Assembly (NCBI GenBank): GCA_017307735.1
Contig: JAFKGR010000004.1
Span: forward strand, 124,001 to 188,000
Source: Chitinophagaceae bacterium
GTDB taxonomy: Bacteria; Bacteroidota; Bacteroidia; Chitinophagales; Chitinophagaceae
Reading direction: 5' to 3'
DNA length: 64,000 nt
This document shows, in pieces, positions 51,451-64,000 of the stretch; within the stretch, counting starts at the first letter, position 1, and the number at the start of each line of letters is the position of its first letter. Under the pieces are notes generated by a model that saw only the letters and a list, made by a program, of their open reading frames with translations, was not told the DNA's origin and did no database searches. A program made the position numbers and the translations under genes.

Positions 51451-51783
51451 GTGGGAATTACTAAATCAGATCAATTTACAGACAAACAAAATGCCATCGC
51501 AACCATTGCCAAGGCATTCGGGCATCCTGCGCGGGTAGCCATCATGGAGTATTTACTTAAAGTGGATAGCTGTATCTGCGGCGACATTGTAAACGAATTG
51601 CCCCTTGCACAGCCGACCATTTCACAACATCTGAAGGAACTTAAAAATGCCGGATTGATAAAAGGAAATATTGAGGGCAACGCAATCTGTTACTGCATTG
51701 ATGAAAAAACCATTGAAAAATTGCAGAACTACTTTGGCAACATCTCCGCAAAACTCAGGAAACATAAAACCAATTGTTGTTGA
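51451..51783 (+). CDS. arsR: ArsR/SmtB-family metalloregulator
   Basis: 110 residues; winged helix with AIATIAKAFGHPARVAIMEYLLKVDSCICGDIVNELPLAQPTISQHLKELKNAGLIKG. The CxC in DSCICGD (about residues 31-37) sits where classic ArsR sensors bind arsenite in helix 3, and the tail ends TNCC, a possible third thiol site. The start is GTG at 51451, the only start before the HTH. It heads arsM and arsC, so it is the arsenite-responsive repressor of a detoxification operon. Its operator and promoter overlap just upstream. Confidence 0.92.
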   Translation: MGITKSDQFTDKQNAIATIAKAFGHPARVAIMEYLLKVDSCICGDIVNELPLAQPTISQHLKELKNAGLIKGNIEGNAICYCIDEKTIEKLQNYFGNISAKLRKHKTNCC

Positions 51784-51801
51784 ATAAAAAAATAAAATAC
51801 G

Positions 51802-52635
51802 ATGAGCGATAATTCACAAATCAAAGAAATGGTAAGGCAGAAATACAGCGAAATTGCCTTGCAGGATAACGAGACAAATGCCACATCCTGCTGCGGCAGC
51901 ACCTGTTGCAGCACGGAAGTTTATAACATCATGAACGATGAATATGACCGGCTGGAAGGATATAATCCGGATGCCGATTTAAAATTGGGTTGCGGGCTTC
52001 CCACACAGTTTGCGAAAATTAAGAAAGGCGACACCGTAGTGGATTTGGGCAGCGGCGCCGGCAACGATTGTTTTGTAGCACGGCATGAGACAGGCGAATC
52101 CGGAAAAGTTATCGGAATAGATTTTACTGAGGCGATGATTGAAAGAGCAAGAATCAATGCTGAAAAACTGAATTACAATAATGTGGAATTTCGTTTCGGT
52201 GATATTGAAAAAATTCCGATTACTGCAAACATGGCTGATGTAGTAGTGAGCAATTGCGTGATGAATTTGGTACCCGACAAGCCCAAAGCCTTCGCCGAAG
52301 TTTTTCGTATTTTAAAACCCGGAGGGCATTTCAGCATTTCGGATATTGTGCTTACGGGTGAATTGCCTGAAAGGATTAAAAATGCAGCCGAGATGTATGC
52401 AGGTTGCGTGGCCAGCGCGATTCAAAAAAATGATTACCTGAAAATCATTGCAGAGGCCGGATTTAAAAACATTGCGCTTCAGAAAGAAAAGCCAATCATC
52501 ATCCCAGATGATATTTTGAAAAATTACCTGAGCGATGAAGAAGTTGCGGTTTATCAATCCAACAAGAACATCATTTACAGCATCACGGTTTATGGTGAAA
52601 AGCAGGCAACCTGCTGCGGCCCGGATTGTTGCTAA
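51802..52635 (+). CDS. arsM: Arsenite S-adenosylmethionine methyltransferase
   Basis: 277 residues. SAM motif TVVDLGSGAGNDCFVARHETG (about residues 75-95) and GIDFTEAMIERARINAEKL. The conserved arsenite-binding cysteines are in place: cysteine pairs near residues 30-36 (TSCCGSTCCSTE), VVSNCVMNLVPDK and MYAGCVASAI. The tail KQATCCGPDCC adds further thiols. ArsM methylates arsenite to mono-, di- and trimethyl forms, which escape as gas or are exported. It lies 18 bases after arsR and 10 before arsC, so the three form an operon. Confidence 0.95.
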   Translation: MSDNSQIKEMVRQKYSEIALQDNETNATSCCGSTCCSTEVYNIMNDEYDRLEGYNPDADLKLGCGLPTQFAKIKKGDTVVDLGSGAGNDCFVARHETGESGKVIGIDFTEAMIERARINAEKLNYNNVEFRFGDIEKIPITANMADVVVSNCVMNLVPDKPKAFAEVFRILKPGGHFSISDIVLTGELPERIKNAAEMYAGCVASAIQKNDYLKIIAEAGFKNIALQKEKPIIIPDDILKNYLSDEEVAVYQSNKNIIYSITVYGEKQATCCGPDCC

Positions 52636-52645
52636 AGGATGATGT

Positions 52646-53062
52646 ATGAAAAAAAAGATTTTAGTGCTATGTACCGGAAATAGCTGCAGGAGCCAGATTG
52701 CCGAAGGTTACCTGAAATATTTTGCCGGAAATAAGGCGGATGTTTTCAGCGCAGGTATTGAAGCGCACGGTGTAAATTCAAAAGCAGTAGAAACGATGAA
52801 GGAAGATGGTATTGATATTTCAAATCATACATCTAACCTTGCGGGCGAATATGATGATATGGATTTTGATTTTGTCATCACCGTTTGCGACAACGCAAAA
52901 GAACGGTGTCCGTATTTCCCTTCTTCAGCAAAAAGATTTCATCAAAATTTTCCTGACCCGGCAAAATACACCGGAAGCGATGAAGAAATCAAAGAACAAT
53001 TCCGCCGGGTCAGGAAACAAATAAAGGAATATTGCAAACAGTTTGTGCAGGATAATTTATGA
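52646..53062 (+). CDS. arsC: Arsenate reductase, low-molecular-weight phosphatase type (ArsC)
   Basis: 138 residues. The P-loop CTGNSCRSQIAEG (C-x5-R) opens the protein, with a second redox cysteine in ITVCDNAKERCPYFP and the catalytic Asp in FPDPAKYTG. This is the thioredoxin-coupled class with the nucleophile near residue 10 and a Cys pair near 82 and 89. It reduces arsenate to arsenite, which ArsM next door methylates. It ends only 7 bases from the convergent DUF4382 gene. No Acr3 or ArsB efflux gene is in the window. Confidence 0.94.
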   Translation: MKKKILVLCTGNSCRSQIAEGYLKYFAGNKADVFSAGIEAHGVNSKAVETMKEDGIDISNHTSNLAGEYDDMDFDFVITVCDNAKERCPYFPSSAKRFHQNFPDPAKYTGSDEEIKEQFRRVRKQIKEYCKQFVQDNL

Positions 53063-54173: not shown

Positions 54174-54825
54174 TGTTGTAGGCAATGCGAACCGACATTA
54201 TGAAGCGATTAACAATTCTATTCTTTTCAATCTCTTTAATCAGTTGCAACCAAAATACACAGACACAAAATGACAATATGCTCAAGTTCTCAGACAAAAG
54301 AAATTATGCGACAGAACTAATTGACAACGGTTTTTTAAAATATGCAGACAGTTCAAAGGTTGACAGTTTAAAAACTCAGCTCAGAGATTCATTTAATATT
54401 TATGAAGACGACAATTTCAAAATAGCTCACATTGACGCCGAAGAACTTGCTGAATTCAGCTTTGACTTTTTTCTTCCAAGTTTGAATAGGATTTTAGCCA
54501 AAAGAGACGTTCAACTTTCGGTTAAAAAACTAAACGATGATGATAAATCGTTTGACGTTTTAATAAATGACGATACAATTCAACTTTACACTCAACAAGA
54601 TTTAAACAACAATACATTTTGGGACGCAGCTTCAAGAAATTTCTTTAGAAAATTAAACGAGCTTTTGAAAGCAAAAAATCACGACGAGCAATTTTATTTG
54701 CTTTATGGCGGTAACGACTTGCACACAATGCTTCTGACAGACAAACAGTTTTCAATTATAGCCGACTACTATAAAAAAAGTATTAAGGAGACACCCTATA
54801 AACCATGACAGCACTGCCTACAACA
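54174..54825 (+). mobile_element. Single-gene cassette bounded by 14-bp inverted repeats
   Basis: TGTTGTAGGCAATG (54174-54187) and CACTGCCTACAACA (54812-54825) are inverted repeats that differ at one base. Between them is only one gene, whose chosen ATG lies 12 bases inside the left repeat and whose stop lies 3 bases before the right one. The ends belong to the same family as the ends of the large segment 55011-63957. No transposase or integrase is inside. I infer a mobile cassette; mobility is not shown by the sequence. Confidence 0.5.
54200..54808 (+). CDS. Small lipoprotein of unknown function (cassette gene)
   Basis: 202 residues from the ATG at 54200, chosen because it opens a lipoprotein signal peptide (MKRLTILFFSISLISCNQN, lipobox LISC). 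An in-frame ATG at 54185 lies inside the terminal inverted repeat and adds five residues. I do not recognise the mature protein. It is acidic and helical, with EDDNFKIAHIDAEELAEFSFDFFLPSLNRILAKR and FWDAASRNFFRKLNELL, and a C-terminal FYLLYGGNDLHTMLLTDKQFSII. The base composition is AT-rich like the segment to the right. It is the only gene of its cassette. Confidence 0.7.
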   Translation: MKRLTILFFSISLISCNQNTQTQNDNMLKFSDKRNYATELIDNGFLKYADSSKVDSLKTQLRDSFNIYEDDNFKIAHIDAEELAEFSFDFFLPSLNRILAKRDVQLSVKKLNDDDKSFDVLINDDTIQLYTQQDLNNNTFWDAASRNFFRKLNELLKAKNHDEQFYLLYGGNDLHTMLLTDKQFSIIADYYKKSIKETPYKP

Positions 54826-55025
54826 TTCGCATTGGCAATAGCTGGGGGTGACGTGCATTTCATCAGCTTTTTGTTCGCTATTTAGCTGTAGTTCCGGGCT
54901 GAAAATTATCTATTAAGCAACAGAATAAAAATCTCAACTTTTTGTTCGTTTACTGGGCAGACGTTCCGGCAGAAAGTTATAAATTGCCCAGCCATCGCCA
55001 ATGCGTGGCCGTTATAGCCAATGGT
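54812..55025. repeat. Long imperfect palindrome between the two cassettes (attC-like in plan)
   Basis: About 214 bases. The outer boxes are CACTGCCTACAACA on the left and GTTATAGCCAATG on the right. Inside them CGCATTGGC (54828-54836) is the exact reverse complement of GCCAATGCG (54997-55005), and AATAGCTGGG (54837-54846) pairs with CCCAGCCATC (54987-54996) at 8 of 10 positions, the other two being G-T type. The centre holds two related modules (54865-54923 and 54936-54991) that share CTTTTTGTTCG and GTTCCGG; the second is closed by a perfect 7-bp stem CTGGGCA/TGCCCAG. The plan resembles large integron attC sites, but the boxes do not fit the RYYYAAC/GTTRRRY core. Confidence 0.6.
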
Positions 55026-55042
55026 AGGACGACCGTGCAAAC

Positions 55043-55329
55043 AACGAACAGACGAACAAAATTTAAAAAGTAAAACTAAGATAAACCATTTTGAAAAGTG
55101 AACAACATACAGACCATATTACAAACGGACAACGATTAAGCCGACACTCATTGCCTACCCCTATGTTTTTTATTTTTTTCCAACGCACATTTTTTAAAAA
55201 CAATTTTAGCCAATCGCACATTGGCACATTTGGTTTTGCCCCGACACGCAAAGCCAACACTTCGCAAAACCAAAAGAGCCAATTTTCCAACGCTCAATTT
55301 TGTTACATTAGTAATCCTGAATTTTAATT
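55043..55329. other. Structured leader or upstream region of the helicase gene
   Basis: No gene. It contains CAACATACAGACCA (55103-55116) and AGCCGACACTCATTGCC (55139-55155), both of which recur near the other end of the cassette. It also holds the hairpin set listed next and a CAATTTTG box (55294-55301) that may be the -7 element of the operon. Confidence 0.4.
55209..55283 (+). promoter_or_regulatory. Alternative hairpins upstream of the helicase gene
   Basis: GCCAAT (55209-55214) can pair with ATTGGC (55220-55225) over a 5-base loop. The same ATTGGC can instead pair with GCCAAT at 55278-55283, enclosing a second perfect 8-bp stem GGTTTTGC (55232-55239) / GCAAAACC (55264-55271) with 6-base internal loops on both sides. 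The two folds exclude each other. If the promoter is the CAATTTTG box at 55294, this region is not transcribed and would act as DNA. Confidence 0.45.
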
Positions 55330-58300
55330 ATGGCAGAATTTAATCGCAGACCTGAAACCAATAACATTTTTGAGGGAACTTCTGATGAAGTAATCGTAAT
55401 CACATTACGAGTCAAAGATGATTTTGCTCAACAGTACAATAATAATTCAAGCAATGAAATCCAATTTGAAAATTTATTGAATCAAATTGCTGAAAATAAC
55501 ATTGTGTGTTTGTTTCAGAAACAAAAAGAATTTTTAAACAAAGACAAAACTACTGGTGCTGTTAAAAAAAGTTCTACCCATAAAATTATAATTCCGTTAG
55601 GTAACGAAACTGCCATTGAAGGAACATTAGCACTTTTTCAAGACGAATATTCGTACAGAGTTGTGAAATTGAAACAGGTAAAACTGTTCAATGAGCCAAT
55701 AAAAAATACAATCAGAAGAAATTGTAACCTAACATTTCGAGGTTTCAATGATTATCGTGGCTTTGTATCTTCTGAAAAATTCAAAGAATTGTATGAGCAA
55801 ATAGAAAATTTACAAATCCCATTAATTGACATCAACAAAGAAAAAGACCGTCAAATTTGGGAAAAGTATGTTGTTGCTTTAAAGAAGTTAGTTAAACAAA
55901 AAGAACAAGTTTGGAAAATCCAAAACATTAAAATGCCTTATGCAGAAGCAAGACAAGGCGAAGCGGAAAGAGCAAACTATATTGATATTTTCATCAATGA
56001 AACAGAACTAAGAGAACAACTTGAAAAAGACATTTTAGGGTTATTCAATGAAAGCGAATTGGAAGATTACGGAGTAAGTGAAAACAAAGCGTTTATTGAG
56101 TTCAAAAATTACAGAGAATTAGGGCAAGAAGAATTGAACCAACTCAAAGAGTTGGGAGATGAATTATTTTACGAAATTTCAAATAATTCGCCATTTCACA
56201 CCATTTCGGGAAAAATTGATTTCAAGTATGCCGACAACGTTTCAAAAGAAGATATTTATGCTGAAATACAAGACAAACTGCAAGCAGAGTATGAACTTGA
56301 ATGTTCAATCAGCAATGACGGTTACATTGACCTTAACGAAAATGATATTCCGCATTTGCAAAAAATCGTTGCAGACAATTATTCTCATATTCTCTCGGTT
56401 CACAAAGACAATGTTGTTCAGTTAAAAGTTGATTTCAAAGCGGACAATGAATTACCAAAAATATCACAATCAATAAAACAAGAATTAAATAGTCTTGGAC
56501 ATACAAATTCTAATGTTTCTATTTCTAATGAAAAAAATATTGTTGTTGAAATAGCAGTGCCTTTATTTGAGCAATTTGGAGTTTTGTCTGTATTCCAAAA
56601 GGGAATGCCAGCAACAAAATTACCGTTATCGGATATTAAAATTGAAAAGTCTATTCTTAGGTTCTCAACCAATCAACGTTTAAATTTTAAAGAAATAAAA
56701 GGTTTTGAATTTGTTGCTGGAAATTATCAAATAACCAACCCAACAAAAGAACAAATTCAAAATTCTCAATCAATACTTGAAAATGAATTTAGAGGAATAC
56801 GATTTCGAAGAATGCCAAATTTATACTATTTGAAATCTCTTGAAAAAGTAAATCTCGAAACGCTTCGCAACTTTAGAACACAAACTAATTTACAAGGAAA
56901 AACAGAATTTGTTTTAGCAAGTTCAACACTTAAAATTTCAGCAGAAAATAATACAGATTACGAAAACCAATTAAAACGTATCAAACAACAGTTTCCGAGT
57001 GCAACTATTGAAGAAAAGCCATTTAATCCGACATATCAAATTGTGTTCGATACAGATGTTGAATCAAAACGGCAAAACGTAATCAACAAAATTCAAAATG
57101 AAATCAGAAAAGAAATTGGCAAATCGGCTGATTTTGATGTTGTAAAAAAACATACCAGAATTTTATTTTCTTATCAATTCAAAACAGATGACGAAAGAGA
57201 TTTATTTAAACAAGCGGTGTTAACCGCTTGTTCAGAACATCGTCATATTTTGAATTTTACTTTTGAAAATCCATTAGGAAGAACAACCTACGAACTTTTC
57301 AAAAATGAAACGCTTGAACTTGAAAAGGAAAAAGAAGTGAGACGGAACATTAGCCAAGCTACATTTATTTACTTGAGTCCAGAGCAAAGAAAAAATTTAA
57401 GTGAAAAAATTGAGCAGTTCGGAGAAGAAGCTATTTTCAAAGAAGGCATACAAATAGGAAGATTAGTAAAAAAGGAAAAAGACAGGTTGAAATTCAAAAT
57501 AACTGATGCTTTTGATGAAATCATTAACGGACGAGAGCAAGACCGTATTGAATTAAGTGAAATCCGAAAAGGTTTTATCAAACCTATTTTCCCAGGAGAA
57601 CTAACAAACATTGGTAGAATGATTCGGGCAATGAAAAAAGTTACCGAACCAAATACAAGAAACGGCTTTCCTATCAATCAAAACTTGCCAAACTTTTTAT
57701 TTGACCCAAATGAAGCAAGACAATCATCAACAGACCTTGAAGAAGAAAAACAAAAAGTTGTTCAGAATCTGAATGAACCTTTGCTTAAAGACCAACCAAA
57801 ACAACTTGAAGCTGTTGCAAAAACGCTTTTAGCAAAAGATTTGGCACTTATTCAAGGTCCGCCCGGAACAGGAAAAACAACTGTAATTGCTGAAATAATT
57901 TGGCAAACACTTTTGCGAGAACCAAAAGCGAAATTGTTGATTACATCGCAAACAAACCTTGCAGTTGATAATGCTTTGGAACGTATTAAAGGTAAAAAAT
58001 TAGTGCGACCAATTCGTGTTGGAAATATTGACAAATTTGAGGATGAGGGAAAAGTTTATTCCAATGACCGAATCAAAAATTGGATTCAGGCAAAGACTGG
58101 TTCAAAGGAAGAAAAACAATATTCCGATAATGCCGTTTGTCAATGGATTGAAAACGTAAAAGATAAATGTAGTAAAGATGAAAAATACGCAAAAGCAGTT
58201 TCCAAATGGAAAAAAGGTTTAGTTGAAAAAGACGTATTGATTAAATCAACTTTTTCAAATGCCTACTACGAATATGTGAACGTATTTGCAGCAACGTGTA

Positions 58301-59406
58301 GCGAATGTGGTAGCCGAAATTTTGGCGACACTTATCAAATGACATTCAACCAACATTCAGAAAGAAAAAGCGAACCTGAATTTGATTTGGTAATAATGGA
58401 TGAGGCAAGTAAAGCAACGCCACCCGAATTGGTTTTGCCTTTAACATTAGGAAAAAAGGTTGTGATAATTGGCGACCATAAACAGTTGCCACCAATGATT
58501 GACGAAAAAGAATTTGGCGAAGCATTAGAAGCAGTTGGAGCAAAAAAACTGATTGAGGATTGGACAAAAGAAGATTACAAGGTTTCGCAATTTGAAAAAT
58601 TATTCAAAAATGCACCGAATAACTTTGTTGCGAGTTTGGATACTCAATTCAGAATGCACGAACAAATTATGAATTGTATTTCCGAGTTCTATTCTGACCA
58701 AGAAGAATTGGAAAATGGTTTGATATGCGGAATTAAAGGCGAAATGAACATTGCCGACTTCAATGTAAAAGCAAGTCGTTGGCACGGTTTAAACATTCCT
58801 CCTTTAATAACTCATGACATACACGCTATTTGGGTAAATGTTGAAACACCCGAAGATAAAGTTGGAACATCTTACGAAAATGAAGGCGAAATCAAAGCCA
58901 TTCAAACTGTTCTGAGAGCATTAACCAAAGCCGAAGGATTTGAACAATATCAAAATCATTTCAAAAAAGACGAGGACAAAGAAATAGGAATCATTACTTA
59001 CTATATGCCACAAATGCAAAGCATACGAAAAGCAATGTATCCACATTTTTCAAAAAATGAATGGCGAAATTTTGAGCAACATAAATTTGAAAACGAATTT
59101 CAACTTCCACTTAGAATAAATACCGTTGACCGTTTTCAAGGAATGGAGCGAAATATCATTATCATTTCAACGGTAAGAAGCAACAAACAATACAAAGAAG
59201 AAAGGGGAAAGAAAATTCCGATTGACAATGTCGCATTAGGTTTTGCAAGAGAATTGCAACGTATCAATGTTGGTTTTTCAAGAGCAAAAAGATTGCTGAT
59301 TGTAGTTGGAAATCAAAAACACTTTTCACGTAAACCTGAATATCAACAAGCAATTCAAAAAATGCACCCAATTGACATTGCACAAATTCAAAATCTTATT
59401 AAGTAG
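55330..59406 (+). CDS. Large SF1 helicase, UPF1-like (COG1112 type), first gene of the cassette operon
   Basis: 1358 residues. The motor is in the C-terminal third: Walker A GPPGTGKTT from residue 843, motif Ia SQTNLAVDNALERI, motif II MDEAS (D1024) with PPELVLPLTLGKKVVIIGDHKQLPPM as motif III, DTQFRMHEQI as motif IV, VDRFQGMERNIIIISTVRSN as motif V and NVGFSRAKRLLIVVGN (about 1313) as motif VI. These fit the AAA_11/AAA_12 UPF1-like family that unwinds RNA or DNA 5' to 3'. Residues 1-840 match no domain I know; segments near 310-360, 370-410 and 560-640 look like repeated small alpha-beta modules. The stop TAG shares its last base with the GTG start of the next gene. Confidence 0.88.
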   Translation: MAEFNRRPETNNIFEGTSDEVIVITLRVKDDFAQQYNNNSSNEIQFENLLNQIAENNIVCLFQKQKEFLNKDKTTGAVKKSSTHKIIIPLGNETAIEGTLALFQDEYSYRVVKLKQVKLFNEPIKNTIRRNCNLTFRGFNDYRGFVSSEKFKELYEQIENLQIPLIDINKEKDRQIWEKYVVALKKLVKQKEQVWKIQNIKMPYAEARQGEAERANYIDIFINETELREQLEKDILGLFNESELEDYGVSENKAFIEFKNYRELGQEELNQLKELGDELFYEISNNSPFHTISGKIDFKYADNVSKEDIYAEIQDKLQAEYELECSISNDGYIDLNENDIPHLQKIVADNYSHILSVHKDNVVQLKVDFKADNELPKISQSIKQELNSLGHTNSNVSISNEKNIVVEIAVPLFEQFGVLSVFQKGMPATKLPLSDIKIEKSILRFSTNQRLNFKEIKGFEFVAGNYQITNPTKEQIQNSQSILENEFRGIRFRRMPNLYYLKSLEKVNLETLRNFRTQTNLQGKTEFVLASSTLKISAENNTDYENQLKRIKQQFPSATIEEKPFNPTYQIVFDTDVESKRQNVINKIQNEIRKEIGKSADFDVVKKHTRILFSYQFKTDDERDLFKQAVLTACSEHRHILNFTFENPLGRTTYELFKNETLELEKEKEVRRNISQATFIYLSPEQRKNLSEKIEQFGEEAIFKEGIQIGRLVKKEKDRLKFKITDAFDEIINGREQDRIELSEIRKGFIKPIFPGELTNIGRMIRAMKKVTEPNTRNGFPINQNLPNFLFDPNEARQSSTDLEEEKQKVVQNLNEPLLKDQPKQLEAVAKTLLAKDLALIQGPPGTGKTTVIAEIIWQTLLREPKAKLLITSQTNLAVDNALERIKGKKLVRPIRVGNIDKFEDEGKVYSNDRIKNWIQAKTGSKEEKQYSDNAVCQWIENVKDKCSKDEKYAKAVSKWKKGLVEKDVLIKSTFSNAYYEYVNVFAATCSECGSRNFGDTYQMTFNQHSERKSEPEFDLVIMDEASKATPPELVLPLTLGKKVVIIGDHKQLPPMIDEKEFGEALEAVGAKKLIEDWTKEDYKVSQFEKLFKNAPNNFVASLDTQFRMHEQIMNCISEFYSDQEELENGLICGIKGEMNIADFNVKASRWHGLNIPPLITHDIHAIWVNVETPEDKVGTSYENEGEIKAIQTVLRALTKAEGFEQYQNHFKKDEDKEIGIITYYMPQMQSIRKAMYPHFSKNEWRNFEQHKFENEFQLPLRINTVDRFQGMERNIIIISTVRSNKQYKEERGKKIPIDNVALGFARELQRINVGFSRAKRLLIVVGNQKHFSRKPEYQQAIQKMHPIDIAQIQNLIK

Positions 59407-61490
59407 TGAAGAAACGATTATCTAAAATAGCGAGAGATTTTAAAAGCAACATTCCTGTTGTTGTTGAATTTTTGCGTGTAAATGGTTACGAATGTGAGGA
59501 AGACCCCGAAGTGGAATTTTCAAGTGAAGTAGTTGAATTTATTGAAAATAATTTTCCTGCATTTCTATCAGAACGCAACAAAGAGAATCAAAAACAAGCA
59601 CCAAAAAAGAAAGAAAAAAGCAGTGATTCTATTCTAAGCGAACAAATTCCTTTGGAATTAAAAATCATTGAATCGGCAAGCAAAGAGAAAAAACTAATTG
59701 AGAGAATTATTGGTTTTACAGAGTTTGACTGGCATTACACTATTGCAAAATTCAAAGGCACTTGTTCACAGCCCGTTGATTTCAACTTGTTTGATGAAGT
59801 TCTTTGCGACTTGCTTTTGACCGAACAAATGTCGGCTGAAAAAATCGGAAACATTCTCGGTTTTGACATTCAAAAAGACCCAGCCGAAAATGATATTCTT
59901 CTAAAAGCAATCAATGATTTGAAAGCAGATAAAATGCTTGACGGAGATGAAAGTATTTTATGGCTTACTGATGTCGGTATTGAATACGCAAAAAATGGTG
60001 TGAAATTCTCAACATTTACAAGAGATTTTGATTTGTATGTTGATAATATTGGTGTTGCAAAAGAAAAAGTAAAAGAGATTTTCAGTAACCTGAAAAGTGA
60101 AAAGCAAGCTACATTCAGCAAAGATTTTCTTCCAAAAAATAGTGAAGAAGTAAAGCCATTAGCAGAATTACAAGCACCTGAAATTCATTTCCCAAAAAAG
60201 AATTTTTTGTTGCAAGAATGTACCCCAACAGGTGCGGAAGGATATAAAGCAAAAGTTTGGGTTGTGTTGTTAGAAAATTTCAGAGATAACACAATGCGGG
60301 CAATCGTCTATGACGAAAAGCAAAATAAAGTGATTGATGCTTTATCCGAAGCATTGGACAAACAAGATGAAATAAAAGCCGAATTACTTGAACGTTTAGT
60401 AAAAGTTGATGATGAAATTGAATTTACTAATGAAGAAAAGCAAAAAGAACAGGTTGAAATTGAACAAGCGTTAATTCATAAACAAGAAGAAATTGACGAA
60501 GCGATAAACAACCAAGACACAACCAAAATAAAAGAAATAGAAAAAGAAGTTGAATCAATCAAAAGACATTTCAACTCTTTGGAATTTGAAGTTGAATTGA
60601 AAAAACTCTTTGACACAACTTCCGACACAATTTTAATTCAAAGTCCTTGGGTTCGTGATTTTGCTTTCAAAAATAGAGTTCCGTTTATCAAAGATTATTT
60701 GCGTAAAGGCGGTAGAGTTTACATTGCATATTCCGAAAATGAAAGTTTTGGAGGCGAAGATATGGTTCAAGAAGAATCAAAGAAACTGCTTGCAGAATTA
60801 GACAAGAATTTGAATTTCTATTGTTGTGAATTGCCAGCATTTCATTACAAAAACGTTTGGTTGGTAAAGGAAGATAACAAGAATAGTTACTATTCGGGCA
60901 GTTACAATATTCTTTCATTCTTTGTTCATCAGAATATGAAAAATGTTCGTCAAGAAAAAATGACGAGAATGGATTGGGACAGCGAATTAGAAGAACAATA
61001 TTTTGAGGTTTTCAAAAAGTTTGGATTGAAGTACATCAATTCGGCAATAGAAGATTTTAATACACTTTGTAATAACCCACCAACAAAAATTGACAGAGAT
61101 TATTTGCAAAAACTACGAACTGTTGATAACAGTAAATTAAAGCCATTTAAAGGAATTGGAGTTGAAGAATTTGACGGAGCTTTAGCTTCACTTGAAAATA
61201 CTAAAACTGAAAATCTCAATTATTATCGAAAAATATTTTTTGAAAACGAAATAGAACGATTTGAAAAACAGGTAAATGAACTTTCACAAAAACCAATTTC
61301 AATAGACAGAAAGAAAAATCTGCAAAAAGAATTTGAAAAGGTTAGAGATGAATTTGTTGATTTACTTGATTTGCAAATGAATAAAGCAAAAGATGTAACG
61401 GATATAATAAATAACTTAAAGGTTTTCAGTCCACAAAACCACCAAAAACAGCATAACCACAACCACAATAAAAACAAAAAGAGAAGATAA
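59406..61490 (+). CDS. PLD-like protein with an IF2-N-like head, cassette operon gene 2
   Basis: 694 residues from a GTG that overlaps the helicase stop by one base. Residues 1-50 (KKRLSKIARDFKSNIPVVVEFLRVNGYECEEDPEVEFSSEVVEFI) resemble the IF-2 N-terminal domain that begins Bacteroidetes translation factor IF2. The middle is helical with a strongly charged coiled coil (about residues 325-400). A phospholipase D-like region starts near 405 (TILIQSPWVRDFAFKNRVPFIKDYLRKGGRVYIAYSE). The HKD motif appears once as H480-Y-K482, but the Asp expected five residues after the Lys is Val; D490 is shifted. GSYN (498-501) replaces the GSxN tail. It could be a dimeric nuclease or an altered one. Confidence 0.75.
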   Translation: MKKRLSKIARDFKSNIPVVVEFLRVNGYECEEDPEVEFSSEVVEFIENNFPAFLSERNKENQKQAPKKKEKSSDSILSEQIPLELKIIESASKEKKLIERIIGFTEFDWHYTIAKFKGTCSQPVDFNLFDEVLCDLLLTEQMSAEKIGNILGFDIQKDPAENDILLKAINDLKADKMLDGDESILWLTDVGIEYAKNGVKFSTFTRDFDLYVDNIGVAKEKVKEIFSNLKSEKQATFSKDFLPKNSEEVKPLAELQAPEIHFPKKNFLLQECTPTGAEGYKAKVWVVLLENFRDNTMRAIVYDEKQNKVIDALSEALDKQDEIKAELLERLVKVDDEIEFTNEEKQKEQVEIEQALIHKQEEIDEAINNQDTTKIKEIEKEVESIKRHFNSLEFEVELKKLFDTTSDTILIQSPWVRDFAFKNRVPFIKDYLRKGGRVYIAYSENESFGGEDMVQEESKKLLAELDKNLNFYCCELPAFHYKNVWLVKEDNKNSYYSGSYNILSFFVHQNMKNVRQEKMTRMDWDSELEEQYFEVFKKFGLKYINSAIEDFNTLCNNPPTKIDRDYLQKLRTVDNSKLKPFKGIGVEEFDGALASLENTKTENLNYYRKIFFENEIERFEKQVNELSQKPISIDRKKNLQKEFEKVRDEFVDLLDLQMNKAKDVTDIINNLKVFSPQNHQKQHNHNHNKNKKRR

Positions 61491-61492
61491 TT

Positions 61493-62122
61493 ATGTCGTG
61501 TTTTGAATCATCAACTTTTTTGAAAAATCCTGATGTAATGAATCAGGAAATTCTTATTTCAGCTTGCGACAAGTTGGGTTGGAAATATTCTGCAACAGCA
61601 AATGAACTAACCGTTTTTCAATTGAACTCAAATGAAAATTTGAGAGGAGAATATGCAATGAAAATTATCGGTAACAAAGTTACTTACAACACTTACTATT
61701 TGCAGAACGCCAAAAGTAAAGTTCAGGAATTGCAAAACACATTTTACGATTTGAATGTAAAATATGCAGAGGAATCAATAATTCGTGAGTTTAAAAAGCA
61801 AGGTTGGACTTTTAAGAGCAATGATAAATTCAAAGCAAATGAAAACGAAAAAGTGAGTTTTTATATGGTTGGACGGAGCAAATTAAAAGAAGAAACCGAG
61901 CCAATTTCGCAAATAAAATTTACGATTTTTAAAGATGGTTCGGTTAAAACAGATAGCGACTACATTCCAAAAGACATTCACGAATTAGCCGACAAAGCAA
62001 TGGAATCATTGGAAAGTATTTTTGGAAACAAAAGAGAAATTAACGGAAAAGAAATTCCATTGAAATATAAACACAAAACATTTTGCGAAAGCAAGAAAAC
62101 AATCTCAATTACTAAAAAATAA
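61493..62122 (+). CDS. DUF1257 (Ycf35-like) protein with a DUF2997-like tail, cassette operon gene 3
   Basis: 209 residues, starting 2 bases after the PLD gene stop. Residues about 1-120 follow the DUF1257/Ycf35 pattern: FLKNPDVMNQEILISACDKLGWKYSATANELTVFQ ... KVQELQNTFYDLNVKYAEESIIREFKKQGWTF. Residues about 137-180 (ISQIKFTIFKDGSVKTDSDYIPKDIHELADKAMESLES) resemble DUF2997, a small protein often encoded next to DUF1257 in bacteria, so this looks like a fusion. The function of these families is unknown. Its TAA stop overlaps the ATG of the AAA+ gene by one base, as expected for a tightly coupled Ycf35-Ycf46 pair. The family call is from memory of the pattern. Confidence 0.6.
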   Translation: MSCFESSTFLKNPDVMNQEILISACDKLGWKYSATANELTVFQLNSNENLRGEYAMKIIGNKVTYNTYYLQNAKSKVQELQNTFYDLNVKYAEESIIREFKKQGWTFKSNDKFKANENEKVSFYMVGRSKLKEETEPISQIKFTIFKDGSVKTDSDYIPKDIHELADKAMESLESIFGNKREINGKEIPLKYKHKTFCESKKTISITKK

Positions 62123-63726
62123 TGGCACAGATAACAAAAAACAATACCGATACATTTGGGCAAATTCAAGATATGCTAAAAGCATACTACCCGATTTTAT
62201 ACTTGACAACTTTTGAGTATGACCGAACGAAACAAAAATTGAGAGGTGTTGCGAAAAATCTCAACAAAAATTTTCAATTCTACGAATGGAATTGCGTTGA
62301 TGGCTTGGGTAAAAGAGATTTGAACGAGGGTGGACTTACGCCATTTGAAAACGTTGAAGAACCCGAACAACTTTTAAAACACATTTCTAATCAAACAGAA
62401 AAAGACGATAACGAAATTTATGTTCTTGAAGATTTTCACGACTTTATTTCCGAAAGAAATATCAAAATTCAATTACGCCAATTAGCTGAAAAATTGAGAT
62501 TTTACAGAAAGCATATCATTATTGTTTCTTCTGTTTTAAACTTACCTATTGAGTTAGAAAAATACATTACCGTTCTTGAAATGCCGTTACCGGGCAGAGT
62601 TGATTTGGAAATTGTTTTGAATACAGTTTCCAAAAATGCTAAAAAAGAAATCGACAACGACCTTAAAAAGAAACTTATTGATTCTGCATTAGGAATGACC
62701 GTTATGGAAGCGGATTTAGCTTATTGTCTTGCCGCAGTAAAAGACGAATTTGGAATCAATTCACCAAGAACAGTTGCTTTTGAAAAAGAGCAAATCATCA
62801 AAAAAAGCGGATTGCTTGATTACTTTCAAGTAAATGAAAGTTTGAAAAGTGTTGGAGGAATGAATAATCTGAAAGATTGGTTAGAGAAACGTAAACAAGC
62901 ATTTGATTTCAAAGCACAAACTTGGGGACTTGCAGAACCAAAAGGGCTTTTACTTTTAGGTGTGCCGGGCTGCGGAAAAAGTTTGACAGCAAAATGTATC
63001 GCTTCACTTTGGAATATGCCTTTGTTACGACTTGATATTGGTAAAGTTTTTCAAGGAGAAGTTGGAAGTAGTGAAAGCAATATTCGTAGGGCTATTGCAA
63101 CAGCCGAAGCGGTTGCACCTTGTGTTTTATGGATTGACGAAATTGAAAAAGGACTTTCAGGAGTTCAAAGTAGCGGAGCGACAGACGGAGGAACAACCTC
63201 ACGGATTTTTTCAACTATTTTGACTTGGATGCAAGAAAAAACACAACCTGTTTTTGTTGTGGCAACAGCAAACGACATTTCTCAATTACCACCCGAACTT
63301 TTACGCAAAGGACGATTTGATGAAATATTTTTCGTTGACCTTCCTTCGGAAGAAGATAGAAAAAGTATTTTCTCTATTCACTTGACAAAAAACAACCAAA
63401 AACCCGAAAATTTCGGACTTGACAAATTAGCAAAAGAATCGAAAGGTTTCAATGGTGCTGAAATTGAAGAATGTGTCAAAGAAGCAATGTTTTCAGCATA
63501 TACCGATAATCCAAACGAACCCAAATTGCAAATACTTCATTTGCTAAATTCAATAAAAGACACAGTTCCGCTTTCCAAGACAATGAAAGACCAAATTGAA
63601 TTTTTACGCAAGTGGGCTAACAGCAGAGCGAAACAAGCAGGGCAACTAAACAACGAAGATTTGAAAACCGATGAAGAAGTTCCATTGACAAAAGTGGAAA
63701 AAGAACTGAACAGAAGTTTTGACTAA
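62122..63726 (+). CDS. Ycf46-like AAA+ ATPase, cassette operon gene 4
   Basis: 534 residues. The C-terminal AAA+ module is complete: GLLLLGVPGCGKSLTAK (Walker A from G280), ESNIRRAIATAEAVAPCVLWIDEIEKGLSG (Walker B, D339-E340), sensor 1 FVVATANDISQLPPELLRKGRFDEIFFVDLP with the arginine finger region, and sensor 2 KESKGFNGAEIEECVKEA. Residues 1-250 form the degenerate ATPase-like half typical of Ycf46 (YYPILYLTTFEYDR, EIYVLEDFHDFIS, LEKYITVLEMPLPGR). Such proteins probably make hexameric rings that remodel an unknown client, here presumably the DUF1257 or PLD partner. The gene ends the operon; the right terminal repeats begin about 190 bases later. Confidence 0.85.
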   Translation: MAQITKNNTDTFGQIQDMLKAYYPILYLTTFEYDRTKQKLRGVAKNLNKNFQFYEWNCVDGLGKRDLNEGGLTPFENVEEPEQLLKHISNQTEKDDNEIYVLEDFHDFISERNIKIQLRQLAEKLRFYRKHIIIVSSVLNLPIELEKYITVLEMPLPGRVDLEIVLNTVSKNAKKEIDNDLKKKLIDSALGMTVMEADLAYCLAAVKDEFGINSPRTVAFEKEQIIKKSGLLDYFQVNESLKSVGGMNNLKDWLEKRKQAFDFKAQTWGLAEPKGLLLLGVPGCGKSLTAKCIASLWNMPLLRLDIGKVFQGEVGSSESNIRRAIATAEAVAPCVLWIDEIEKGLSGVQSSGATDGGTTSRIFSTILTWMQEKTQPVFVVATANDISQLPPELLRKGRFDEIFFVDLPSEEDRKSIFSIHLTKNNQKPENFGLDKLAKESKGFNGAEIEECVKEAMFSAYTDNPNEPKLQILHLLNSIKDTVPLSKTMKDQIEFLRKWANSRAKQAGQLNNEDLKTDEEVPLTKVEKELNRSFD

Positions 63727-64000
63727 GGGAAAGCTAACACTCAAAAGCAAGCACATTTGTAAACCGCACAATCCAACACACAGACCAAAGTTTGCAAAAG
63801 AACTTGCTTTTCGCCATCGCTGACAAAATTGTTTTTAAAAAATTTCCAACGCTTCAAAAAAATAAAAAACGCAACACACAGCCGACACTTAATGGCACGG
63901 AAACCTAATATTGACAATGGTTTGCAAGGACGACCGACAAGAACCACTGGCTATAACAAGGGTTTTGCAAGAGAGCGGGTTAAGTGCTTCGTTTCAAACT
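63727..64000. other. Right end of the four-gene cassette and start of the next palindromic element
   Basis: No gene. CAACACACAGACCA (63774-63787) and AGCCGACACTTAATGGC (63880-63896) repeat words from the left end of the cassette (55103, 55139) in direct orientation. GTTTGCA, AGGACGACCG and ACCACTGGCTATAAC form the terminal block 63920-63957. From 63946 the sequence aligns with the start of the palindrome at 54812 (CACTGSCTAYAACA, then TTkGCAA and GGG words). A further palindromic element therefore begins here and runs off the window. Confidence 0.5.

Follow-up and report, generated by a model that had tools for sequence, protein, structure and literature searches.

The 64,000-nucleotide stretch analysed here (the window; positions 124,001 to 188,000 of the forward strand of contig JAFKGR010000004.1, assembly GCA_017307735.1, from a Chitinophagaceae bacterium) carries towards its end four adjacent genes encoding a helicase, a nuclease, a small protein tentatively likened to DUF1257/Ycf35 and an AAA+ ATPase. 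What does this operon do, and how did it come to lie between repeats in an AT-rich segment? Comparison of its genes, copies and flanks indicates that it is probably a Mokosh variant acting in anti-phage defence, housed in a single large integron-like cassette.

Organization of the operon

The four genes are intact and translationally coupled: genes 1 and 2 overlap by one base at 59406, genes 3 and 4 by one base at 62122, and two bases (61491-61492) separate genes 2 and 3. The open reading frames coincide exactly with the coordinates and junctions from which the original prediction of a new defence or nucleic-acid-processing system had started.

55330-59406, + strand: gene 1, 1358 amino acids (aa), MkoA-type superfamily 1 (SF1; UPF1-like) helicase
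59406-61490, + strand: gene 2, 694 aa, GTG start, MkoB-type nuclease
61493-62122, + strand: gene 3, 209 aa, putative DUF1257/Ycf35-like protein
62122-63726, + strand: gene 4, 534 aa, Ycf46-type AAA+ ATPase
55020-55329, + strand: non-coding 5′ region of the cassette, where a promoter is expected

A Bacteroidota promoter consensus was sought in this 5′ region upstream of gene 1 and not found. The segment is as AT-rich and as bare of other genes as had been described, with a GC content of 0.33 in the cassette against 0.41 in the remaining window and no further plausible genes besides the four between 54811 and 64000.

A Mokosh-type helicase and nuclease

Genes 1 and 2 had been likened to the helicase/PLD nuclease pair of Mokosh, a proposal borne out by profile comparison. 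The PADLOC MkoA models match gene 1 at E 2.4e-110 (aa 653-1344); Pfam assigns it to AAA_11/AAA_12, its nearest solved relatives in the PDB are UPF1, SMUBP-2, DNA2 and SEN1, and its Walker A (GPPGTGKTT) and motif II (DEAS) are intact. The MkoA protein of Mokosh type I carries a serine/threonine kinase domain; a Pfam search found no kinase family in gene 1, and some plasmid relatives carry a kinase annotation, and the two-gene relative L028 has no kinase domain.

Gene 2 is a diverged MkoB. PADLOC MkoB matches it at E 4.6e-9, and by hhalign its profile can be aligned across 449 columns (E 6.2e-12) with two MkoB proteins of cyanobacteria, both encoded in ordinary two-gene Mokosh loci; the homology to MkoB therefore spans most of gene 2 and is not confined to the PLD part. 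The protein contains a single PLD half-site, FHYK...SGSYN (aa 479-501), whose residues H480, K482, G498, S499 and N501 are invariant in six close copies. In the most diverged copy (L032), where genes 1, 3 and 4 are retained, the N-terminal part of gene 2 persists, the HxK...GSxN motif is missing and a PIN_4 domain (E 7e-22) is fused at the C terminus instead. This replacement of PLD by PIN suggests that the nuclease is the effector, surrounded by a platform made up of the helicase, the gene 3 protein and the AAA+ ATPase. An IF2-N-like start of gene 2, likely by eye, had no Pfam match, and tblastn found no relatives of the gene in plasmids and phages.

The AAA+ ATPase and gene 3

Gene 4 encodes a Ycf46-type AAA+ ATPase, in line with the homology first proposed. 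It matches Pfam AAA (E 1.4e-31), has intact Walker A (GVPGCGKS) and Walker B (WIDEIE) motifs, and is 40% identical over 518 aa (E 2e-127) to the AAA+ protein of a cyanobacterial DUF1257/DUF2997 module, encoded in Pseudanabaena beside annotated DUF1257 and DUF2997 genes; it is also the most conserved of the four genes (86-99% among copies). The plasmid AAA+ protein nearest to gene 4 (47%), from Treponema (L022:8345-10500), lies between a 4Fe-4S protein and phage-baseplate/VgrG-like genes and is not part of a helicase operon.

The companion assignment of gene 3 to Ycf35/DUF1257 found less support than the original label implies. Pfam DUF1257 (PF06868) matches neither gene 3 of the window, nor that of L032, nor anything else in the window's own genome. 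What remains is a reciprocal best match among 1359 open reading frames, in which the best outside match of the gene 3 profile is a true DUF1257 protein (E 0.001) and the DUF1257 profile ranks the gene 3 family right after its own members (E 0.006-0.03), the matches being collinear both ways and the E-values marginal; direct comparison by hhalign gives P 0.003. On this evidence gene 3 is likely, not proven, to be a DUF1257 protein, and the family label, drawn from the marginal reciprocal match and from gene context, is a weak one. An AlphaFold model of the protein (predicted local distance difference test, pLDDT, 73.5) matched no PDB fold at E <= 0.001, and its match to a viral structure, with a template modelling (TM) score of 0.17, is meaningless. 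A C-terminal DUF2997 domain, likely by eye, could not be separated from background (hhalign P 0.005). No relatives of gene 3 were found among viral contigs, nor, by tblastn, among plasmids; a weak, frame-broken relative with two stops (L100, G467:C94:695-991; E 4.5e-5) is perhaps a relic of the operon.

Recurrence, selection and neighbouring genes

Six relatives emerged when GTDB genomes were scanned with gene 3. Five have all four genes in the same order, with identical or nearly identical junctions, in Weeksella (L003), a Bacteroidetes metagenome-assembled genome (MAG; L004), a Bacteroidia MAG (L005), Flavobacterium glaciei (L006) and a Chitinophaga MAG (L007); the sixth (L008) is cut by a contig end. 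The order is also kept in L032, a complete genome from a Bacteroidota sample, at identities of 38, 31, 49 and 53% for genes 1-4. All genome searches were made in samples, and PADLOC was used in its 2023 release; in three overlapping samples of 395 genomes each, the operon turned up in 3, in 1, and in 2 with a further doubtful case, and none of 196 additional genomes from the window's family has it, two of them belonging to the same genus. Recurrence in the same order combined with such patchy, rare occurrence marks it as a real, horizontally moving unit. Recurrence, which the original prediction proposed to check in distant phyla, was seen within Bacteroidota, in six other genomes from distant genera and families; outside Bacteroidota the exact four-gene set was not found by a search that reached close relatives only.

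For genes 1-4, comparison of the window with the Weeksella copy gives dN/dS values of 0.21, 0.05, 0.04 and 0.01: all four are in use and under purifying selection. With this and the order shared by L003-L007 and the diverged L032, the arrangement is not due to chance. The same data bear on whether gene 3 and the AAA+ ATPase are independent hitch-hikers outside the mechanism of a plain two-gene Mokosh. Described Mokosh does work as a pair (PADLOC models; two-gene loci L028 and L029), and Ycf46/DUF1257 modules are also found without a helicase; yet such passive carriage is improbable for genes whose order and coupling persist even at 31-53% identity, whose junctions are the same in nearly all copies, and of which the AAA+ gene is both the most conserved and the one under the strongest purifying selection.

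Defence genes adjoin most copies by plain tally, as anticipated for a system residing in defence islands. Directly upstream of the operon in L005 are a short prokaryotic Argonaute (short pAgo) and its restriction endonuclease partner (E 3e-186 and 3e-164); SspB and SspC lie upstream in L006, and an N-6 DNA methylase followed by an apparent specificity-subunit gene (type I restriction) lies upstream in L032; in L003 a later cassette holds McrB-like and McrC genes, and L008 has a CapP-like gene nearby. This company also bears on a role in RNA or DNA quality control or repair, for which a UPF1-like helicase, a nuclease and an AAA+ remodeller would be suitable parts: the solved helicases nearest to gene 1 are UPF1, SMUBP-2, SEN1 and DNA2, and Ycf35 and Ycf46 of algal plastids and cyanobacteria are not known for defence. 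An operon that is rare, patchy and horizontally mobile, whose copies lie mostly beside defence genes and whose effector domain has been swapped, is nonetheless quite improbable as a housekeeping unit of this sort.

If the operon is instead a defence system, its helicase offers a candidate site of recognition in two segments at which the window and Weeksella copies diverge strongly:

55330-55713, + strand: variable helicase segment, aa 1-128, dN 0.34, dS 1.30 against the Weeksella copy
56437-56838, + strand: variable helicase segment, aa 370-503, dN 0.60, dS 1.35 against the Weeksella copy

Outside these segments dS is ~0.1-0.75 over most of the cassette. The raised values point to exchange by recombination, and we infer that the two stretches may be recognition segments. 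An AlphaFold model of the N-terminal half of the helicase (aa 1-820) had a pLDDT of 38 and was not used.

An integron-like cassette

The segment had been called repeat-bounded, and its edges do carry GTTATAGCC (55011-55019) and the exact complement GGCTATAAC (63949-63957). These repeats are explained by a feature overlooked in the original prediction, namely that the operon is one cassette of an integron-like array:

55012-64000, + strand, running on past the window end to ~64077 (L009 position 1077): four-gene cassette, ~9.1 kb, with complementary end words
63949-64085 (L009:949-1085), + strand: attC-like site of the four-gene cassette, R″ GGCTATAAC
54175-55019, + strand: upstream neighbouring cassette, with a 207-aa lipoprotein-like gene (54185-54808) and its own attC-like site
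54816-55019, + strand: attC-like site of the upstream cassette, R″ GCCTACAAC, chimeric R′ GTTATAGCC

In integrons, the last bases of each attC site of an array belong to the next cassette. The four-gene cassette starts at G|TTATAGCC (G at 55011, TTATAGCC from 55012), and its own site opens at 63949 with the complement of GTTATAGCC; in the upstream cassette, R′ (54175, GTTGTAGGC) and R″ (54816, GCCTACAAC) complement each other exactly, and the inner arms of its site (54828-54846 and 54987-55005) are 89% complementary. The ends of the four-gene cassette are thus complementary 9-mers, each adjoining a long imperfect hairpin; each attC-like site forms an imperfect hairpin of 136-204 nucleotides, and the array runs on to both sides, with further complementary pairs GTTATGGGC/GCCCATAAC and GTTGTGTGC/GCACACAAC.

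Cassette ends were scored by a site-based test with controls, an earlier chain finder having been dropped after giving 22 matches in 346 kb of reversed-sequence controls. Of 18 consecutive pairs from ten loci, 11 agree at all six variable R-box bases (12 of 19 with the operon's own pair, masked in that run by a false site), compared with 2 of 94 non-consecutive pairs of the same locus and 16 of 841 pairs between loci (p 8e-10). Moreover, the Weeksella copy has an 89% identical attC-like site in the same place; its cassette boundary coincides with that of the window copy, and the cassette that comes next is a different one. Identity between the two genomes is 0.90 and 0.87 in the non-coding flanks and 0.45, the background level, just past the cassette end. 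Judged by these boundaries, the operon is one ~9.1 kb integron-like cassette within an array. A four-gene cassette of this length is, to our knowledge, far above the usual size.

In the same Weeksella array, the two-gene McrB-like/McrC operon (L003:11867-14864) likewise forms one cassette (GTTGTGCGT ... ACGCACAAC). Just upstream of the array in the window, an ArsR-like regulator, an arsenite methyltransferase-like gene and an ArsC-like gene stand in a row (51451-53062), judged by eye to be an ordinary arsenic cluster.

Residence in an array, seen in the window and in L003, could mean that the operon serves the array or another mobile element, for example through anti-plasmid activity or cassette stabilisation. 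Such a function is very improbable, as no attC-like sites were seen in L005, L006, L007 and L032.

A possible cassette platform in Bacteroidota

Integrons are very rare in Bacteroidetes according to a survey of complete genomes (PMC9024848). Relatives of the operon's attC-like site occur in 41 of 296 Bacteroidota genomes (about one in seven), with similarity that covers the core but leaves out the R boxes, in a survey that scored only two candidates per genome; the arrays that follow the chimeric R-box rule are represented by L009:949-1085 and its relatives L052-L061, L068-L072 and L080-L089. No IntI (NCBIfam TIGR02249) scored over the cut-off in the window's own genome, and 3 of 20 other array-bearing genomes have one that does. 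Another tyrosine recombinase, of ~355-403 aa, matches the IntI model except at about positions 180-238, the IntI-specific region. Attachment sites of the attC-like type lie downstream of it on the same strand at 10 of 14 loci, a proportion that is not a Bacteroidota-wide rate because the loci were chosen for the recombinase and some came from genomes already known to have sites; at Xer-type control loci, drawn from the same samples so that the contrast holds within site-bearing genomes, the count is 0 of 10 (p 5e-4).

In the window's own genome, a recombinase of this type is encoded on another contig (L089); a single attC-like site lies ~1 kb downstream, and a gene for a single-strand DNA-binding protein (SSB) stands in between. 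An SSB gene stands beside the array-linked recombinase in two genomes (L089:9490-9909 and L069:3918-4286), and is of interest there since the attC sites of integrons undergo recombination in the form of folded single strands.

The array resembles integron cassettes in its co-oriented layout, its chimeric complementary R boxes and its long bottom-strand hairpins, and differs from them in the ~9.1 kb, four-gene content of the cassette, in R boxes that keep AAC/GTT and only partly the purine/pyrimidine pattern RYYYAAC / GTTRRRY, and in the linked recombinase, which lacks the IntI-specific region. It is called integron-like, not an integron, because the R box is off consensus, the recombinase is not IntI and cassette recombination is predicted only. 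A phylum-wide Bacteroidota platform of this kind, in which a non-IntI tyrosine recombinase moves multi-gene cassettes of ~9 kb and one cargo is a self-standing four-gene defence system built on a Mokosh helicase, with an exchangeable nuclease (PLD or PIN) under the control of an AAA+/Ycf35-like pair, is a plausible proposal, though one that falls short of being probable. The cassette platform may be the more novel part, compared with the operon.

Comparison with known systems

Relative to Mokosh type I, the operon shares a gene 1 equivalent to MkoA over the C-terminal half and, adjacent and in the same order, a gene 2 alignable with cyanobacterial MkoB across a region that includes PLD. It differs by two added coupled genes (gene 3 and the Ycf46-type AAA+) conserved as a four-gene unit, by the absence of a detected kinase domain in gene 1 and of a conserved HKD Asp in gene 2, and by one member (L032) with PIN in place of PLD. 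Because four coupled genes, not two, are conserved as a unit, we file the operon as a Mokosh variant and not as a member. The claim of a wholly new system does not stand as made, two of the four parts being homologous to described Mokosh, and survives as that of a new Mokosh variant; no paper joining DUF1257 with defence, or Mokosh with PIN or DUF1257, was found in the open-access literature.

The Ycf46/DUF1257/DUF2997 module of cyanobacteria, Bacillus and actinobacterial plasmids has an AAA+ protein 38-47% identical to gene 4 over at least 90% of its length, and gene 3 occupies the place of DUF1257. Unlike the operon, the module has no helicase and nuclease, encodes DUF2997 as a separate gene and often includes a 4Fe-4S protein.

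A five-gene set on Beta- and Gammaproteobacterial plasmids (Polaromonas, Acinetobacter, Photobacterium and Moellerella; L033:5867-15778, L034:7074-16793, L035 and L036) comprises an MkoA helicase, a PIN protein, an unknown protein, an AAA+ protein and a 4Fe-4S protein. It parallels the operon in having an MkoA-type helicase, a nuclease (PIN), a third gene and an AAA+ gene in the same order, and departs from it in an AAA+ of ClpB-D2 type and an extra radical-SAM-like 4Fe-4S gene. Homology of its genes 2 and 3 to those of the operon was tested and not detected, and they are called analogous; PADLOC had no name for the locus, with a strong match to the helicase only. The L034 set is carried by a plasmid with the name pNDM1 and has BrxL and DarT genes close by.

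In a tree of the helicases, the four-gene, five-gene and two-gene groups each form one clade, though the four-gene side also takes in, on a long branch, one helicase from Hymenobacter that is encoded next to a DarT gene. MkoA-like helicases adjoin a DarT-type ADP-ribosyltransferase at L037:7248-13996 and L027:7897-16195, the former locus also having an ADP-ribosylglycohydrolase and lying inside a BREX operon; the DarT-type partner is perhaps another effector exchange on the same helicase.

Hachiman (HamAB) offers a likeness of function only, in that its helicase senses and a partner nuclease executes; its nuclease has no detected homology to that of the operon, and it has no AAA+ partner. The Hachiman helicase is reported to restrain its own nuclease until damage is sensed (PMC12278908). 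By analogy, the AAA+ ATPase and gene 3 might be an antitoxin-like immunity or silencing pair, restraining a toxic helicase-nuclease until phage products disable the pair (abortive infection by release), to which the coupled order with the nuclease upstream would be suited. This is unlikely: an ATP-driven AAA+ protein would be an unusual antitoxin.

Proposed mechanism and implications

The genes for the MkoA-type helicase, the MkoB-type nuclease and the Ycf46-type AAA+ ATPase stay together with gene 3 in one order, have spread horizontally and usually lie beside defence genes. For the Mokosh variant favoured here, we infer a division of labour between sensor, effector and controller. The helicase would survey nucleic acid through its variable N-terminal half; once phage RNA or DNA, or a structure induced by the phage, is recognised, the nuclease would be freed or fed and would cut; and the AAA+ ring, with gene 3 as a possible adaptor, would remodel the helicase-nuclease complex so as to license activation or reset it. 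The nuclease itself would be an exchangeable effector, PLD or PIN.

Several points weigh against this interpretation. Gene 3 has neither a firm family assignment nor a fold match; gene 2 lacks a conserved Asp in its HxKx4D motif, which leaves PLD activity uncertain; and the controller role given to the AAA+ ATPase and gene 3 is drawn from analogy only. The recombination signalled by raised dS in the variable helicase segments need not imply sensing. No defence neighbour was recognised in L007, the tally of such neighbours has no computed baseline, and the other cassettes of the window's own array are not defence genes. Despite these points, conservation of the four genes as a mobile unit in mostly defensive surroundings makes an anti-phage role the probable one.

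If this is correct, Mokosh would also exist in a form that has a controller driven by ATP and a nuclease open to exchange, and the activation step of this little-understood system would become directly testable. The Ycf46/Ycf35-like pair, a puzzle of algal plastids and cyanobacteria, would gain a concrete setting. Carriage matters equally: the operon would travel as a single ~9.1 kb integron-like cassette, whose attC-like element is found in about one in seven of the Bacteroidota genomes sampled, next to a recombinase other than IntI.

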